DNA of 38,828 nucleotides, from IMG/VR virus record IMGVR_UViG_3300013285_000031, positions 1 through 38,828 of that record; one strand, written 5' to 3'. The DNA is from a virus. Each line of letters opens with the position of its first letter. The first letter of the stretch is position 1. A model generated the notes under the pieces. It did no database searches, was not told the DNA's origin, and saw nothing but the letters and a program-made list of their open reading frames with translations. Position numbers and translations under genes: made by a program. This document shows positions 10,144-38,828 of this stretch, piece by piece.

Positions 10144-12336
10144 ATGGGCGCGTTAGACATTCTATCAAACATCGGGTCAGCCATTGGCTTAGGCTCTGAT
10201 GACAACAAACCACCTAAGATGGTAAAGTCCACTGGCTTTGACGGCAAGAGCTCTGTCGACATGCCTGAGGGCGCTTTGTCTATGACTGATACCAAGGCCC
10301 CAAGTGGTTTGTCAGACTTTATCCCTATGACAGGACCTAAGGGTAGCAAGACGTACATGGACCCCAAGAGTTCTGAAGCCATATTACAAAAAATGCAAGA
10401 CTTTGTTGATCAAAGGACTAGCAACCAGTCCAATTGGGATAACAGACTTGCTGACGCACAGGCTTGGACAATCGGCGACGCTGGACAAAAAGCTCAAGCC
10501 TTAAAAGGCCGTCAAGAGATTGCAACCACTCAGGCCAAAGACGTTCAAGACATGCAGATGCAAATTGCACAATTCAGAGCGGCGCAAGAACGAAACAAAG
10601 CATACAATGAGATGCTCAAGGGAACGTACGGTACCCAACCGCAAACTACTGGTGGTGCTCCTCAAACTGGTGGTGCTTCTCAAGCTGGCGGGGATCCTCA
10701 AACTGGTGGTGCTTCTCAAGCTGGCGGGGATCCTCAAACTGTTACAACAGCTTCGGGTCAAAGGTTTGCTTTTAGTTCACTCCCTCCAGAAATTCAAGCT
10801 GCGGCAAGATCTCAAATAGATCCGGAAGCATTCCAAAAAGTGATCACTGAATGGGCCGCAGAGCATGCCAAGGGTGCGCAGAAAATCGCCGGTGAAATCA
10901 ATGTTCAGGGCAGAGACTATGTGACCGTCAAGGGCCCCAATGGTACAGAGTACCCATCGCTTAAGAAAGATGTACCAGCACTAATTGCTAAGTTGTATCC
11001 TAATGGTGTGGGTTCAGAAGATGTAGTATCTGCTCCTACTACTGCTCCTGATACTACTGCAGAGGCCACTGCCCCGGGTTTTGATGCTCGTAAATCTTAT
11101 GGAACTCCTGCTAAATTATTAGATAATTTATCAGCTACTGAAAGTTCACATGACCCATTTGCTATTAATCCGGACTCTAAAGCATTAGGCAGATATCAAT
11201 TTACTCCAGAAACTGCTGCCATGCTTCATAAACAAGGTATTAAGTTTAATCCATTTGATGCTGATGAATCTCGTGCTGCGGCAGATTACTATATTCAAAA
11301 ATTAGTTAAACAAAATGGTGGCGATTATACTAAAGCTATGATGCAATATGGTGGCTTCAAGAAAGCAGACCCTACTAAATATTTATCACAAGTGATGAAT
11401 GGTGTTGATTTAAATAATTCGGCCCTTACAGCACAAGCTCCTACAGCACAAGCTCCTACAGCACAAGCTCCTACAGCACAAGCTCCTACAGCACAAGGCT
11501 CCCCAACGCGTAATATAGAACTAAATGCTCAGATTCAACAACTGATTACTAGTATTCCTAAACCAAGTCCAAACGCTAATGCGGCGCAGTGGGAAAAATA
11601 CCATAATACTATTGATCAATTAAAAGGTAACTTAGGTGCGGCCCCTATTCAATCAGCTCAGGCGGCTAATAAAACTACTGAAGTAGCCAGAGCAACAAAC
11701 TCTGCAATAAATGAAAAATCTGCGATTGAAAATGCGAGCCTATATAATACAACATATAAGTCCGCTCTAGATAAGTTAGAAAGTTTTGCAAACAATAAGG
11801 CGAATGATCCTCTATTTGCTATTGGTGATAGGCAGGGTGATTTGACTTCTAAGGCATATAATCTCGCAATTCACTTGGGAGTAGACCCAACGGCGGCAAG
11901 AAATACCGTAATATTAAATGACTCTCGAATTTCAAATAGTCAACGCGCCGGAATGAGTGAATTTGATTCTTTAAAAAATCAAATCGTATCTGCATATGTT
12001 CACCAAACTTTCCCAGGCCGTATCTTGGCTTCAGAACTAACTTTAGGTGATAAAGCTAAAGGTGTTTCATTAGAGTCTCAGCGAGAATCTAATGCCAGAT
12101 CACTTGCAAGTATCAGGAATGTGTTTGAGATATCTGATAAACTTGTCAAGGGTTACGCCAAATATAGAGACACTCCAGGTCATGAAAATACACTCTATGA
12201 TGATTACGTCAGATCTAAAGAGGCAACAGATATGATCAGGTCTTCAAATGAGGTCATGATGAGAAAATTCCCGGGAGCCTACACAAAAGCAGAACCCTCA
12301 GCAGAAGACAAATTTGCAAAATATAAAAAGGTATAA
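10144..12336 (+). CDS. Internal virion protein with lytic transglycosylase domain
   Basis: This is a 730-residue protein expected to be ejected with the DNA and to open the peptidoglycan locally. A goose-type/SLT lytic transglycosylase domain spans about residues 315-425. Its landmarks are NLSATESSHDPFAINP with the likely catalytic Glu, ALGRYQFTPETAAM, YYIQKLV and AMMQYGGFKKADP. Upstream is a helical region and a Gly/Gln repeat (two identical 12-residue units). Downstream is a run of four TAQAP repeats, and the C-terminal ~230 residues are helical. AGGAAC before ATG provides a binding site. The next gene begins 2 bp after its stop. An internal virion role is inferred from the domain plus context. 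Confidence 0.78.
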   Translation: MGALDILSNIGSAIGLGSDDNKPPKMVKSTGFDGKSSVDMPEGALSMTDTKAPSGLSDFIPMTGPKGSKTYMDPKSSEAILQKMQDFVDQRTSNQSNWDNRLADAQAWTIGDAGQKAQALKGRQEIATTQAKDVQDMQMQIAQFRAAQERNKAYNEMLKGTYGTQPQTTGGAPQTGGASQAGGDPQTGGASQAGGDPQTVTTASGQRFAFSSLPPEIQAAARSQIDPEAFQKVITEWAAEHAKGAQKIAGEINVQGRDYVTVKGPNGTEYPSLKKDVPALIAKLYPNGVGSEDVVSAPTTAPDTTAEATAPGFDARKSYGTPAKLLDNLSATESSHDPFAINPDSKALGRYQFTPETAAMLHKQGIKFNPFDADESRAAADYYIQKLVKQNGGDYTKAMMQYGGFKKADPTKYLSQVMNGVDLNNSALTAQAPTAQAPTAQAPTAQAPTAQGSPTRNIELNAQIQQLITSIPKPSPNANAAQWEKYHNTIDQLKGNLGAAPIQSAQAANKTTEVARATNSAINEKSAIENASLYNTTYKSALDKLESFANNKANDPLFAIGDRQGDLTSKAYNLAIHLGVDPTAARNTVILNDSRISNSQRAGMSEFDSLKNQIVSAYVHQTFPGRILASELTLGDKAKGVSLESQRESNARSLASIRNVFEISDKLVKGYAKYRDTPGHENTLYDDYVRSKEATDMIRSSNEVMMRKFPGAYTKAEPSAEDKFAKYKKV
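10666..10737 (+). repeat. Two tandem copies of a 36-bp coding repeat
   Basis: Two identical 36-bp units (10666-10701 and 10702-10737) encode TGGASQAGGDPQ twice, preceded by a partial variant. They lie in the linker before the transglycosylase domain. Perfect identity at DNA level points to recent slippage or unequal recombination. Confidence 0.9.
11428..11497 (+). repeat. 15-bp coding minisatellite (TAQAP linker)
   Basis: The unit ACAGCACAAGCTCCT occurs four times exactly from 11428 to 11487, then in part to 11497. It encodes TAQAP repeats that form a flexible linker directly after the transglycosylase domain. Copy number is likely to vary between relatives. Confidence 0.93.
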
Positions 12337-21925: not shown

Positions 21926-22447
21926 TTAAATAGCGAAGTCCGAAGCGGCAGAAGAACTACCACCCAAGCGATCACCATCTGTTAGTTTCTGTACGTTCTG
22001 TAAACCATACGCGATACCTTTTGAACCGCTTGTGTTGTATGGGTAAAGTGTCACTGAGACACGACCATAACAGCCTGAGTAAACTTCATTCGGGTCAATG
22101 ATCTCGTTCATGTCAGCGTCTACAACTCCTGGACGTTGACCTGAGCTTGCGTTAAAGAAGTATGAGTTAGCGTAAGCCTCGTCATCTTTCTCTTCATCGC
22201 CGTCACGTAAAGCACCTTTTAATAACTTAGGTACCGCACCACCAAAAATTGCCGCGTTAGCTGTAGCCACTTCTTTAAATGCATCGTTAAATTTCTTGAT
22301 TGTCTCGGTATCACTTTTTGGGATGATAACAGACACAGAGTACTTCTCTTTATCACTACCCATTGCGGCCACTGGTGTGAACAAGTGAGCGAATGAAAGA
22401 CGAACCTTACCGGTTACTAATTTAACTTTTGTTGAGGCAACTGCCAT
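21926..22447 (-). CDS. Single-stranded DNA-binding protein, DUF2815 (Enc34-like)
   Basis: This is a 173-residue OB-fold protein of the DUF2815 family, known in phage Enc34 as the single-stranded DNA-binding protein used in replication and recombination. Family features are the N-terminal KVKLVTGKVRLSFAHLF, KYSVSVIIPKSD, the segment AYANSYFFNASSGQRPGVVD, and VYSGCYGRVSVTLYPY followed by GIAYGLQNVQKL. The C-terminus is short and Ser-rich rather than strongly acidic. It is followed by a strong terminator and preceded by a hairpin leader. It is paired with the DUF2800 nuclease upstream, as in many phages. Confidence 0.9.
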   Translation of the reverse strand: MAVASTKVKLVTGKVRLSFAHLFTPVAAMGSDKEKYSVSVIIPKSDTETIKKFNDAFKEVATANAAIFGGAVPKLLKGALRDGDEEKDDEAYANSYFFNASSGQRPGVVDADMNEIIDPNEVYSGCYGRVSVTLYPYNTSGSKGIAYGLQNVQKLTDGDRLGGSSSAASDFAI

Positions 22448-33312: not shown

Positions 33313-33525
33313 TTAAGTTTCGTCTGTAAGTCCTTGTTTTATATCATGTGCCAATTTAGTCGCTAAAATGCTGTTTACCCAAGCCCTAAAGTTTTTAACC
33401 GTTTCCTCCGTGTGCTCATCATTTTCATCCCATACTGCCGAGATAATAAACGTACCATCGTCCTCATAGACGTCAATACTTGATAAGTACCCATCAGCGT
33501 CGTACATGTCTTTTAAATTATTCAT
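33313..33525 (-). CDS. Hypothetical small acidic protein
   Basis: This is a 70-residue protein of unknown function. Two ATG codons stand in tandem (33528 and 33525). The second is better spaced (6 nt) from GGAGG. The sequence is acidic with beta-strand character (LSSIDVYEDDGTFIISAVWD) and ends in a helix. It overlaps the sigma factor gene by about 8 bp, implying coupled expression. Confidence 0.62.
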   Translation of the reverse strand: MNNLKDMYDADGYLSSIDVYEDDGTFIISAVWDENDEHTEETVKNFRAWVNSILATKLAHDIKQGLTDET

Positions 33526-34081
33526 CATTGTCCTCCATAAATAGTGCGTCCTCCATCTGATCTAGTGACTCCGGTTCGTGTGTGATGAGTGTCTTAAACT
33601 CCATCACCATGTCTTCCGAGATCCCCATCGCTGTTGCGATCTCTATCGCCTTAGGCTTGCGCCCAAGTGTGTTGGTAAGTGTCCGCTCTGTGTACCGCAT
33701 CTTCTTAACAGATTGCATGACGTTCACCGGTAGTCTAATCATATTGGCCGTGTTATCTAGCTCCCTACTTACACCGCGCTCTATGAAAGACTTGGCGTAG
33801 GTAGCAAACCGAGCATTGTTGGAGGGTATCCACCGCTTGGCCGATATAATCAACTGTTCATTGCCCATGGATATCAAGTCCTCCGATGACATGTTACCAT
33901 GCTTCCATGCCGTCATCTTGCTTACGATGTACACAACAAACCTTAGATTATGGTGTACCAATTTATCTAAGGCCTGTGTGTCACCTCCCTGTATTAGTTC
34001 GGCCAGTCTGTGCTCCTCTTCAATTGGCAGTACATTGTACTTGTACAGGGACTGTAGGTAGTCATTTAAGATATCGCTCAT
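33518..34081 (-). CDS. Sigma-70 family factor lacking region 4
   Basis: This is a 187-residue sigma-like protein. Region 1.2 is clear (DYLQSLYKYNVLPIEEEHRL, AELIQGGD). Region 2 follows (HHNLRFVVYIVSKM, EDLISMGNEQLIISAKRW, ARFATYAKSFIERGVSREL, then MIRLPVN), which covers core binding and -10 recognition. Region 3 is seen as KKMRYTERTLTNTLGRKPKA and IATAMGIS. The protein ends in an acidic tail, with no region 4 to read a -35 box. It should redirect host RNA polymerase to promoters defined mainly by a -10-type element. The four TGYATTAGTATA sites are candidates (inference). Confidence 0.88.
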   Translation of the reverse strand: MSDILNDYLQSLYKYNVLPIEEEHRLAELIQGGDTQALDKLVHHNLRFVVYIVSKMTAWKHGNMSSEDLISMGNEQLIISAKRWIPSNNARFATYAKSFIERGVSRELDNTANMIRLPVNVMQSVKKMRYTERTLTNTLGRKPKAIEIATAMGISEDMVMEFKTLITHEPESLDQMEDALFMEDNDE

Positions 34082-36155: not shown

Positions 36156-36193
36156 AGTCTTAATTATAAAACACAATTAAGACTCTGTGTAAA
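36156..36193 (-). promoter_or_regulatory. Sigma-70-type promoter P2 with inverted repeat
   Basis: TTTACA (36188-36193) and TATAAT (36163-36168) are separated by 19 bp (18 if TTACAC is the -35). The 15-base flanks around both boxes are identical to promoter P1 at 37723-37753. A perfect 11-bp inverted repeat (36155-36165 with 36175-36185) overlaps the -10 region and may be an operator. Confidence 0.72.
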
Positions 36194-36673: not shown

Positions 36674-36709
36674 TTATTTACGTACCACAAAGCCTGTTTG
36701 ATCTTGTCG
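36674..36709. repeat. 36-bp direct repeat, copy 2
   Basis: This is the original copy, forming the last codons of the Gp88-family gene. Together with copy 1 it bounds a 480-bp segment. Confidence 0.9.
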
Positions 36710-37378
36710 AGCTTTGCCCTTGGCATACAAAGCCACCACCACACCTCTTGGCTCTGTGTGACGGATGTCGCTGTTGTCACCACCAATCACGTCAGTAAAC
36801 ATGAATGTCTTCGGTATGTTCTCTGCCTTGTCAAACACCACAGCAATGCGTGATAGTGCGCTATTGGCATTCGCTTTAGCTACCAATGGCGCAAAGCTTT
36901 TAACCCCGCTGTATGAGAATGTAAGGTCATAGTTTGCCGGTATGTTTTTGCGTGTCGGCAACTTGGTATAATCATAGAATGCTAGTGTTGGAAAATGCTC
37001 AAAAATGTTTAGTCCACCATAGTACACATTCTCATAGGCAATGTCTGACGTGCCGTTTAAGCGTACCAATGGTGTCAATCCCATGCGCTGTGCCTTGCGC
37101 TGTAATGCCTTGATTGACCACACTAGGTCATCCATGAATGCCTCGCGCTCCTCAAAGAAGCGCTTAGTCTTGGCAATACGTGCCTTTTGTACAGCAGACA
37201 TTGCTCCACGTCCGGCAGTATAGAGACAGGCTGTCTCACATCCTGCAAGCTTGGCAGACGGGCACACTTGGTATCCGCTAATGTCAGATGGTGACATATA
37301 CAGGATGCCTGTTAAGAAGCCGAGTTTAAGACCTTTGACAGTCTTGGCATCGGCATTGGATGATAGTAGGTTTTTCAT
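36674..37378 (-). CDS. Gp88-family phage protein
   Basis: This is a 234-residue protein of the phage Gp88 type (mycobacteriophage gene 88-like). The conserved pattern is visible: KTVKGLKLGFLTGILYMSPS, GYQVCPSAKLAGC, ETACLYTAGRGAM, then RIAKTKRFFEEREAFMDDLV and LVRLNGTSDIAYE. Cys39, Cys47 and Cys51 may form a metal or Fe-S site. The molecular function is not established. Its leader is the 3' product of hammerhead ribozyme 1. Its 3' end is duplicated at 36194. Confidence 0.85.
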   Translation of the reverse strand: MKNLLSSNADAKTVKGLKLGFLTGILYMSPSDISGYQVCPSAKLAGCETACLYTAGRGAMSAVQKARIAKTKRFFEEREAFMDDLVWSIKALQRKAQRMGLTPLVRLNGTSDIAYENVYYGGLNIFEHFPTLAFYDYTKLPTRKNIPANYDLTFSYSGVKSFAPLVAKANANSALSRIAVVFDKAENIPKTFMFTDVIGGDNSDIRHTEPRGVVVALYAKGKARQDQTGFVVRK

Positions 37379-37398
37379 ATTGTATCCTTGTTAGGTTT

Positions 37399-37450
37399 GT
37401 ATAAGACTGCCTCTCGGCAGTTTCGGCTCGTGAAGCCTCGTCAGTTATAC
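37399..37450 (-). ncRNA. Hammerhead ribozyme, type I, copy 1
   Basis: Read 5' to 3' on the minus strand, the elements are: stem I strand GUAUAA; core CUGACGA; stem II GGCU with loop UCACG and AGCC; core GAAA; stem III CUGCC with loop GAGA and GGCAG; then UC; and stem I strand UUAUAC. Every invariant core base is present, and the cleavage triplet is GUC. Cleavage is predicted between 37405 and 37404. The 5' stem I strand contains the stop codon TAA of the preceding gene. The 3' product forms the leader of the Gp88-family gene. Confidence 0.92.
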
Positions 37451-37693
37451 TGTGATTGTAACACCATCTACCTTAACACTTTTGATGGTGTCCTTGTTGA
37501 CTGCGCGGTATCCCTTGTCAGCCATGCTGTAGATAATGATGAAACTATCATCTAGTGTACGCTTGCCACCGGCTAAGTGCTTCTTAACATTTAGTAGTCC
37601 GTTAATGGTGCGCTCTGTGCCGTCTTTCTTCATAAATGTGATAGTCATAAATTTGTTGCTGTTTAGATCTATGAAACTTGAGATGTTTGACAT
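37445..37693 (-). CDS. Conserved small phage protein
   Basis: This is an 82-residue protein of unknown function, rich in beta strands (FMTITFMKKDGTERTINGLL, NVKKHLAGGKRTLDDSF, KGYRAVNKDTIKSV), a pattern common among phages and possibly SH3-like. It is driven by promoter P1. Its stop codon is part of hammerhead ribozyme 1. AAAAGGATACAAA precedes the ATG. Confidence 0.75.
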   Translation of the reverse strand: MSNISSFIDLNSNKFMTITFMKKDGTERTINGLLNVKKHLAGGKRTLDDSFIIIYSMADKGYRAVNKDTIKSVKVDGVTITV

Positions 37694-37715
37694 TTTGTAT
37701 CCTTTTCGTTTGTTG

Positions 37716-37753
37716 AGTCTTAATTATACAGGTCAATTTATGACCTGTGTAAA
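37716..37753 (-). promoter_or_regulatory. Sigma-70-type promoter P1 with spacer palindrome
   Basis: TTTACA (37748-37753) and a consensus TATAAT (37723-37728) are separated by 19 bp (18 if TTACAC is the -35). The spacer holds a perfect 8-bp inverted repeat ACAGGTCA with TGACCTGT (37728-37748), an operator candidate. The flanks match P2. It lies just after the stop of the 38028 gene and drives the 37693 gene. Confidence 0.78.
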
Positions 37754-37758
37754 TTATT

Positions 37759-38028
37759 TTAATCCTCGTCAATATAAGATAATTTATAATCAATCACAGT
37801 AAATTCTCCGTTTACTCCCCGAGTCATAAATGATTTTAGCTCGTCTTCACCCGTAGTAAAATAAAAAATATACTCGTCTGATATCCCCCAATGGTCGGCA
37901 ATGATGTCTCCATTATCGTCTAGTGTATCCTCGAGACCTTCACCAAAAGAAAAATATGCCATGTCCTTAATTTCTTTTGTGTCATCCCATTGAAAGCTTG
38001 CCCATGCACCAATTGCTTTTTTAGTCAT
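37759..38028 (-). CDS. Hypothetical acidic phage protein
   Basis: This is an 89-residue acidic protein (IKDMAYFSFGEGLEDTLDDN, GISDEYIFYFTTGEDELKSF) of unknown function. GGAGGTG, within the end of the preceding tiny gene, stands 6-8 nt before the ATG. Promoter P1 begins right after its stop. Confidence 0.68.
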   Translation of the reverse strand: MTKKAIGAWASFQWDDTKEIKDMAYFSFGEGLEDTLDDNGDIIADHWGISDEYIFYFTTGEDELKSFMTRGVNGEFTVIDYKLSYIDED

Positions 38029-38032
38029 GATA

Positions 38033-38170
38033 TTACACCTCCTCGTCGTCTGTTGTTGGGTATATCTCTATGCAAGTGTCGCTAGAGTATACATCATTGT
38101 CGATGCCCGAGCCTGATACGCTGTAGCTATACAGTTTCTCGGCTGTGTCGTTTAGTTTAATTGATGTCAT
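38033..38170 (-). CDS. Tiny acidic protein downstream of hammerhead ribozyme 2
   Basis: This is a 45-residue protein (MTSIKLNDTAEKLYSYSVSG, DNDVYSSDTCIEIYPTTDDE). GAGGATACAACAGC precedes the ATG. It is the first gene of the RNA released by cleavage of ribozyme 2. The function is unknown. Confidence 0.6.
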   Translation of the reverse strand: MTSIKLNDTAEKLYSYSVSGSGIDNDVYSSDTCIEIYPTTDDEEV

Positions 38171-38191
38171 GCTGTTGTATCCTCTTGGTTT

Positions 38192-38243
38192 GATTAAGAC
38201 TGCCTCTCGACAGTTTCGGCTCTTGAAGCCTCGTCAGTTAATC
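38192..38243 (-). ncRNA. Hammerhead ribozyme, type I, copy 2
   Basis: The elements on the minus strand are: stem I GAUUAA; core CUGACGA; stem II GGCU with loop UCAAG and AGCC; GAAA; stem III CUGUC with GAGA and GGCAG (one U-G wobble); UC; then UUAAUC. Against copy 1, two stem I base pairs change on both strands and pairing is kept, which is strong evidence for a selected RNA. Cleavage is predicted between 38198 and 38197. It starts directly after the TGA of the antirestriction gene. Confidence 0.92.
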
Positions 38244-38828
38244 TCATGCTACTTGTTGCAGTGTTGCATCCAGTGAGTTGATGTAGTCACTAGCTTTCTG
38301 TGCCAAGGCTGATGCCTTGAATACTGCCTTGTTATCAGCCTTTAGCATCCTCAGCCATGATGCGATGTAATTGGCATGTTGTAAGTTTCCGCTGATATGG
38401 TGGTCGGCACATAGGAATGCACTACCGAGCTCTGCTACTAGCTCCTCGAATGCGTAAGCCTCGTTACCAAAGCGCCCAGTCATATCGCGGTCTAGTCTAG
38501 CTTTAACTCCTGTCCAATGCGTCAGCTCATGGAATGCCGTAGCATAGTATGCGTCTGCCGTATTGAAACTGTCACGATGTGGCAATGTGATGCTGTCGGT
38601 AGATGGTGTGAATTGTGCGCTGTCCCCGCCATGGCGGATAATTGCACCTGTCATTGCCATGCGCGTCTCGCATAATGCGCTCGGCTCTACTGTCGGCATG
38701 CTGTCCAGTGCGGGAATTTCATAGTCCGTTTGGTCAGCATTAAACACGTTGAAACCTTTCATGATAGCGTAACCATTGGTCTCGGTCTCGCCCTGTGCAT
38801 TGGTCTTGGTGCTCGATACAGGCTTAAA
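38244..38828 (-). CDS. ArdC-type antirestriction protein, C-terminal zincin domain (5' end outside window)
   Basis: The frame is open to the right window edge. It reads FKPVSSTKTNAQGETETNGY before the first internal Met at 38762, so the gene continues outside and 194 residues are visible. The region is the C-terminal metallopeptidase domain of ArdC-like polyvalent proteins: NVFNADQTD, FHELTHWTGVKARLDRDMTG with HExxH, and NEAYAFEELVAELGSAFLC with the third ligand Glu. ArdC proteins protect incoming DNA against restriction. Its place at the start of the minus-strand early operon fits that role. Hammerhead ribozyme 2 follows its stop. Confidence 0.88.
   Translation of the reverse strand, partial: FKPVSSTKTNAQGETETNGYAIMKGFNVFNADQTDYEIPALDSMPTVEPSALCETRMAMTGAIIRHGGDSAQFTPSTDSITLPHRDSFNTADAYYATAFHELTHWTGVKARLDRDMTGRFGNEAYAFEELVAELGSAFLCADHHISGNLQHANYIASWLRMLKADNKAVFKASALAQKASDYINSLDATLQQVA

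Follow-up and report, generated by a model that had tools for sequence, protein, structure and literature searches.

A pair of predicted type I hammerhead ribozymes at gene joints of a co-directional phage operon

Introduction

In the available text of Perreault et al. (2011; PMC3088659), prophage hammerhead ribozymes lying near each other flank genes or short gene blocks and also occur next to ardA. The authors propose that long phage RNAs are processed into mRNAs with the length of an operon or of a gene, and they report cleavage for three tandem arrangements in vitro and for one in E. coli. A 2017 review, in its accessible part, likewise describes hammerheads near each other that flank small ORFs, and calls their role open (PMC6155905). 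According to a summary in a further paper (PMC10085705), self-cleaving ribozymes (twister, hammerhead) are enriched near phage genes and near one another, for a reason called unknown; the strongest association there is with Mu-like phage genes, whereas the genes considered here are early or replication-type genes of other phages.

The window analysed in this study is a virus record of 38828 bases. It contains two predicted hammerheads, E1 and E2. The window pair is an instance of the described arrangement; a preceding sequence-only reading knew of no described system of exactly this form, a view which fails in the light of the available text of Perreault et al. (PMC3088659). As far as that text goes, the two cases have in common the location on one strand, the flanking of genes or short blocks, antirestriction neighbours (ardA there, an ArdC-like gene here), and gene identities that are not constant. 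Unlike the prophage hammerheads as presented in that text, the window family consists of uniform, compact type I ribozymes with an open 6-bp stem I, a fused stop codon, and a cut-to-start distance near 26 nt. It also reaches up to 14 copies per phage record, whereas the tested examples in the same text are tandem, with one triple (Agrobacterium tumefaciens). The alignment dataset of Perreault et al. may hold members of the compact family. A literature search, thin on subscription papers, found no paper on stop codons inside phage hammerheads, and the term "stop codon" has 0 occurrences in the available text of PMC3088659. As far as these searches reach, the compact stop-codon-bearing form and its dense arrays are a variant not found described in the literature.

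Results

Two hammerheads at the borders of a three-gene segment

E1 is located at the joint of the ArdC-like gene and the 45-aa gene, and E2 at the joint of the 82-aa gene and the Gp88 gene (Table 1). Both contain CUGACGA, stem II GGCU/AGCC, GAAA, and GUC, and in both the loop of stem III is GAGA. In E1, the core CTGACGA is accompanied by stem II GGCT-TCAAG-AGCC, GAAA, and stem III ACTGTC-GAGA-GGCAGT. Direct reading of the sequence gives stem I as GATTAA/TTAATC in E1, with C17 at 38198, and as GTATAA/TTATAC in E2, with C17 at 37405. The stem I sequences of the two copies differ, yet pairing is complete in each. Both copies have the hammerhead core (CUGANGA ... GAAA ... UH, with an A-U pair at the base of stem III), and both are of type I: stem I is open, stems II and III are closed by loops, and no pairs are formed past the 6 bp of stem I. 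The hammerhead is the minimum-energy fold for each window copy (-13.1 and -16.0 kcal/mol).

Table 1. Features of the region around the two predicted ribozymes
Feature	Coordinates	Strand	Remarks
E1 hammerhead ribozyme, type I, open stem I	38192..38243	minus	predicted cut 38198/38197
E2 hammerhead ribozyme, type I	37399..37450	minus	predicted cut 37405/37404
ArdC-like antirestriction gene	38244..38828	minus	truncated by window end; stop TGA 38246-38244 abuts E1 stem I
45-aa gene	38033..38170	minus	ATG 27 nt past E1 cut
89-aa gene	37759..38028	minus	without family match (Pfam, PHROG)
82-aa gene	37445..37693	minus	phrog_2267 (unknown function); end lies within E2 stem I
Gp88 gene	36674..37378	minus	Pfam GP88 5.3e-39; ATG 26 nt past E2 cut
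AGGATACA ribosome-binding leader of 45-aa gene	38176..38183	minus	identical octamer at 37696-37703 and 37381-37388
Promoter candidate TTTACA-19 nt-TATAAT, palindromic spacer	37723..37753	minus	precedes 82-aa gene, within bracketed segment

A hammerhead-like pattern occurs 2 times in the window, as compared with 0.33 expected. The covariance model R2, which was built from 32 relatives with the window excluded, gave 74.4 bits (E 5e-17) for E2 and 72.1 bits (E 2e-16) for E1; the outcome was the same with an earlier covariance model that included the window's rows. The R2 scan revealed no further copies in the window (next best E 0.59). As the window ends inside the ArdC-like gene, additional copies may lie upstream. 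A comparison of the window region with the phage collection by DNA similarity gave no match. The pattern expectation, the stem pairing in relatives, and the R2 E-values led us to reject a chance origin of E1 and E2. The earlier proposal of two same-strand hammerheads bracketing three genes is confirmed by sequence, fold, and the R2 match. Its cut coordinates agree to the base with those in Table 1, and direct reading bears out that the 3' products of both predicted cuts start with UUAWWC, followed by AAACC.

Genes and signals around the ribozymes

The product of the ArdC-like gene matches Pfam MPTase-PolyVal (8.6e-47) and phrog_7245, an anti-restriction protein (1.6e-52). That of the 82-aa gene shows a WYL_2-like match slightly below the Pfam cut-off, and its TAA stop (37447-37445) sits within stem I of E2. 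The minus-strand genes from 16828 to the end of the window include those for DNA polymerase, ribonucleotide reductase, helicase, primase, and an exonuclease-like DUF2800 protein; from such replication-type genes, the term "early operon" used in the sequence-only reading is a fair inference.

The predicted RNA between the cuts is 793 nt long and carries the genes starting at 38170, 38028, and 37693. The GGATACA segment downstream of both cuts, previously described as a shared ribosome-binding segment, is indeed shared and of the ribosome-binding kind, but it is not tied to the ribozyme. It is also found before the start at 37693, where there is no ribozyme, and is therefore considered to be the ribosome-binding leader of the phage rather than a part of the ribozyme.

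A sigma-70-like promoter candidate lies inside the bracketed segment, so that there may be other products besides the 793-nt RNA with its three genes. Should the candidate at 37753-37723 be a promoter, transcription of the 82-aa gene and Gp88 could start at this position as well. The pair TTTACACAG...TATAAT, with 19-nt spacing and internal symmetry, is present on the minus strand at 37723-37753 and 36163-36193; these are the only two in the window, as against 0.20 expected. They are perhaps a phage promoter class with an operator between the hexamers. Elsewhere on the minus strand, a perfect TTGACA-18-TATAAT promoter match (34138-34109) immediately precedes the gene at 33518-34081. For this gene, there is a match to a PHROG with the name RNA polymerase sigma factor. 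A DUF2815 RNA (RF03084; 22445-22504, minus strand, 71 bits) precedes the gene at 21926-22447 and is the sole above-threshold Rfam match in the window.

Gp88 was also considered as a constant partner of the ribozyme. This was rejected, as ribozyme copies were found in 0/5 Gp88 regions of other phages (L354-L358), which means that neither Gp88 nor its neighbours need the ribozyme.

Conservation of the fold in the ribozyme family

Scans of viral contigs yielded 63 stretches at first and at least 119 in the second scan. These loci contain at least 251 distinct copies, with a stem I of 6 bp in 240, 7 bp in 10, and 8 bp in 1. An unbiased pattern was then used that leaves the inner stem I free and fixes nothing except the core and the outer G-C pair with the A residues next to it. 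Among the matches listed, the five free stem I pairs were all formed in 295/295 distinct matches, and each free position showed between four and six types of pair. Stem II pairs were formed in 295, 294, 293, and 291 of these 295 listed matches, and the five tested stem III pairs in all 295 of them. In alignment A1 (85 rows, picked from the 251 by equal length), 99.9% of 1360 cells were paired versus 28-35% when slid; the scanner had required pairing except at the two outer stem I pairs. Covariation is thus found in all three stems, I, II, and III.

The loops of stem III are mainly GNRA or UUCG-like. An A is conserved at -7 and after the 3' strand, the sixth pair is G-C, and loop II is mostly UNNAU/UNNNU. 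The conserved A's and the UNNNU loop II suggest that the open end of stem I may be in contact with loop II. In four loci (L023, L033, L050, and L051), a GUAA loop II (stem GUC/GAC) goes with the stem I end ATCTAA/TTAGAT, which lacks the outer G-C pair. This looks like a joint change of loop II and the stem I end.

The Rfam models RF00163 (Hammerhead_1), RF00008 (Hammerhead_3), and RF03152 (RAGATH-1-hammerhead) have the same core and three stems as the window copies. However, a scan of the ribozyme region gave no Rfam match above threshold, and the window copies were far below the thresholds of RF03152 (22.5 vs 56.3 bits) and RF00008 (21.3 vs 48.5 bits). The gathering threshold is a property of the model and does not describe the structure of a hammerhead. 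Relatives in L188 and L023 do reach the RF00163 threshold. Twelve loci with dozens of copies contained one Rfam gathering-threshold match; the Rfam thresholds overlook most of the compact phage family.

Position of the upstream stop codon, the cut, and the next start codon

Stop positions were numbered from the C of CUGANGA. Duplicate loci (L001, L002, L022, and L066) were removed. Among the matches listed, 7 of the 295 sites had under 250 nt upstream and were left out, and 8 of the remaining 288 were without a qualifying ORF, leaving 280. In 193 of these 280 listed sites, the stop is in or against the ribozyme, and all three frames are covered. The stop starts at -3 (stem I) in 56, at +1 (the core UGA) in 39, at -9 in 39, at -8 (a UAG to which the conserved A and G contribute) in 31, and at +11 (loop II) in 28; it lies upstream of -9 in 76 and beyond +40 in 3. 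In the window, the stop is at -9 for E1 and at -3 for E2. Wherever the stop is within -9..+13 (200 of the 280 sites among the matches listed), the predicted cut comes downstream of it.

The stop triplet is linked to the frame of the upstream gene. Among the matches listed, the stop triplet is found in 56/59 frame 0 sites vs 104/221 others (p 9e-13), the loop II stop in 28/31 frame 2 sites vs 125/249 (p 1e-5), and T at -8 in 31/73 frame 1 sites vs 19/207 (p 2e-9). After removal of similar upstream genes (232 sites among the matches listed), the p values were 3e-11 (frame 0), 2e-4 (frame 2), and 2e-6 (frame 1), for sites that are still not fully independent. It should be mentioned that the 280-site set includes loci first fetched with TAA seeds, which makes TAA seem more frequent but does not affect the association of triplet with frame. 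In 48 non-seed copies (47 with a qualifying ORF), the underpowered frame 0 test was null (3/5 vs 22/42, p 1.0).

Cutting might be coupled to translation, since a ribosome terminating at a stop inside the ribozyme would have to unfold stem I and the core. The ribozyme would then read translation of the upstream gene, and would cut only before the first ribosome comes or after this translation slackens. The stop lies within the structure (-6..+40) in 131/280 sites among the matches listed, the stop triplet matches the frame of the upstream gene, and E2 is of the stop-inside type. On the other hand, only E2 has an internal stop in the window, the stop of E1 abutting stem I; the 76 listed sites with a stop further upstream than -9 do not conform either; and selection for a compact stop codon is not equal to proof of translation-dependent cleavage. 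Coupling of this kind seems possible, though rather doubtful. Tentatively, the ribozyme might even form one device with the 3' end of the gene before it in this phage family. Stem I, the core, and loop II would provide a stop codon for any reading frame of that gene, and the terminating ribosome would gate cutting, so that a whole phage transcription unit with up to 14 sites would be divided into mRNAs in step with translation.

The distance from the cut to the ATG has a median of 26 nt, with 22-38 nt as the 10th-90th percentile (246 sites among the matches listed). The ribozyme directly precedes the start codon, as would be expected of an aptazyme-like switch that exposes the downstream ribosome-binding site. 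However, the predicted accessibility of this site is similar before and after the cut, with means of 0.651 and 0.696, respectively (246 sites among the matches listed); in the window, it changes from 0.74 to 0.80 and from 0.59 to 0.67. Furthermore, stems II and III have short loops and there is no ligand domain. Such a switch is therefore extremely unlikely.

Arrays and distribution

Among 50 whole virus records, which were selected for already having a copy, 29 contain at least two; the largest numbers are 14 (G009), 13 (G019), 9 (G031), and 7 (G004 and G007). None of 62 multi-copy loci among the matches listed has copies on mixed strands. The borders of one or a few phage genes are thus occupied by at least two hammerheads, all on the coding strand. 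In G009 (29.8 of 39.8 kb examined), the 14 copies lie at gene borders in a stretch of about 24 kb, which includes small genes as well as those for RNA polymerase, primase/helicase, DNA polymerase, ligase, and thymidylate synthase. Near these type I copies, a type III hammerhead is present on the minus strand (L189, 5468-5522; RF00008 47.4 bits, threshold 48.5), within an ORF of 64 aa, which is possibly not a true gene.

The median distance between consecutive copies is 577 nt (241 pairs among the matches listed). In 138 of these 241 listed pairs, base pairing could occur between the 3' stem I strand of the first copy and the 5' strand of the second. This is in line with excision and circularisation, in which the RNA between the cuts would be joined end to end, either by the reverse ribozyme reaction or by a ligase of the host, for example RtcB; the ends of the excised RNA would suit joining. 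In the window, however, the stem I strands do not cross-pair (GUAUAA against UUAAUC has two mismatch positions). In addition, the 5' and 3' neighbours would need no ribozymes in arrays of 14, and no spliced or circular products were detected when Perreault et al. searched for them (PMC3088659). Circularisation is thus considered very unlikely.

When each bacterial species was represented by one genome, the scan yielded 15 stretches, including Legionella, Mucilaginibacter, Pedobacter, and Aquimarina. Also among these is a contig of an Aliivibrio MAG, with 8 copies within 5.8 kb. With a simple ORF caller, many copies in the 15 loci of sequenced bacteria had no adjacent ORF; the tight geometry is therefore a feature of the phage set and less so of the copies in host genomes. 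The cultured Flavobacterium phage elemoA has one copy (E 4e-10), with the upstream stop at -79. This ribozyme (L353, 12026-12092) is overlapped by an annotated CDS of elemoA on the opposite, minus strand (11994-12101), which is probably not a gene.

Comparison with the nearest relative

The nearest relative, G008 (27 kb; L022/L066/L193), encodes an 82-aa protein 95% identical to that of the window. It has exactly two ribozyme copies, at places homologous to E1 and E2; the case of relatives with one copy at unrelated places, named beforehand as evidence against a paired module, was accordingly not encountered here. The gene upstream of the E1 counterpart encodes 76 aa, is not ArdC-like, and ends on the stem I TAA. 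Two genes (101 aa and 82 aa) lie between the copies in L193, as compared with three in the window: the 89-aa gene is missing, and the C-terminal part of the 101-aa product matches the 45-aa gene product of the window at the same place. A promoter candidate, TTTACA-18-TATAAT, is also at the same place. The ribozyme sites would thus be kept in the window and G008 while genes come and go, as judged from these two sequences.

The window and L193 share sequence downstream of E1 and differ in the upstream genes. This might be explained if the ribozymes were mainly repeated landmarks for phage recombination, that is, borders of cassettes, with cleavage being of little use. Homology around the ribozymes was one-sided in 297/346 diverged pairs (0.86) vs 0.64-0.77 at three control offsets; this excess is modest, and the pairs are not independent. 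Moreover, the perfect stem I pairing with free letters (295/295 among the matches listed) means that selection acts on the fold, not on sequence identity. A primary role as recombination borders is therefore unlikely, and such a role could be a side effect of the ribozymes.

Discussion

Transcript processing at the E1 and E2 joints is the best reading of these results. The two type I hammerheads, if active, probably serve as intergenic punctuation of a co-directional phage operon, splitting it into shorter mRNAs. Support computed here comes from sequence, fold, covariation, strand, placement at gene joints, and conservation of the pair in one relative. The spacing of stop, predicted cut, and start codon and the cleavage reported for clustered phage hammerheads (PMC3088659) likewise speak for it. 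The internal promoter candidate, the lack of conservation of the gene content between the cuts, and the Gp88 loci without ribozyme are points against it. The RNA-processing module put forward in the sequence-only reading therefore stands as the best reading, but not with a fixed content, as three genes are bracketed in the window and two in G008. We infer that self-cleavage would take place in the window phage, and that separate stability or expression may be the benefit of cutting.

In this processing model, each ribozyme would fold in the nascent transcript, with its 6-bp open stem I, and would cut itself 3' of its own stem III. Because the cut is located after stem III, the upstream message would retain its stop codon, followed by a 3' tail of roughly 40 nt ending in the tetraloop hairpin. 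Hammerhead chemistry in general leaves 2',3'-cyclic phosphate and 5'-OH ends; the former would be at the 3' end of the upstream mRNA and the latter at the 5' end of the downstream mRNA, which would begin with a leader of about 26 nt carrying the ribosome-binding site. The operon would be divided into the ArdC-like gene, the three small genes, and Gp88 onward, each with a separate fate.

The geometry is fixed: a stop in or against the ribozyme, the cut, a short leader, and the start. This leads to concrete predictions on the positions of RNA ends, on which genes become separated, and on control of cutting by translation. As seen in the record with 14 copies, the arrays can be dense, and the arrangement can be a genome-wide one of phage mRNAs. 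Since a cultured Flavobacterium phage has a copy, the system is open to testing.
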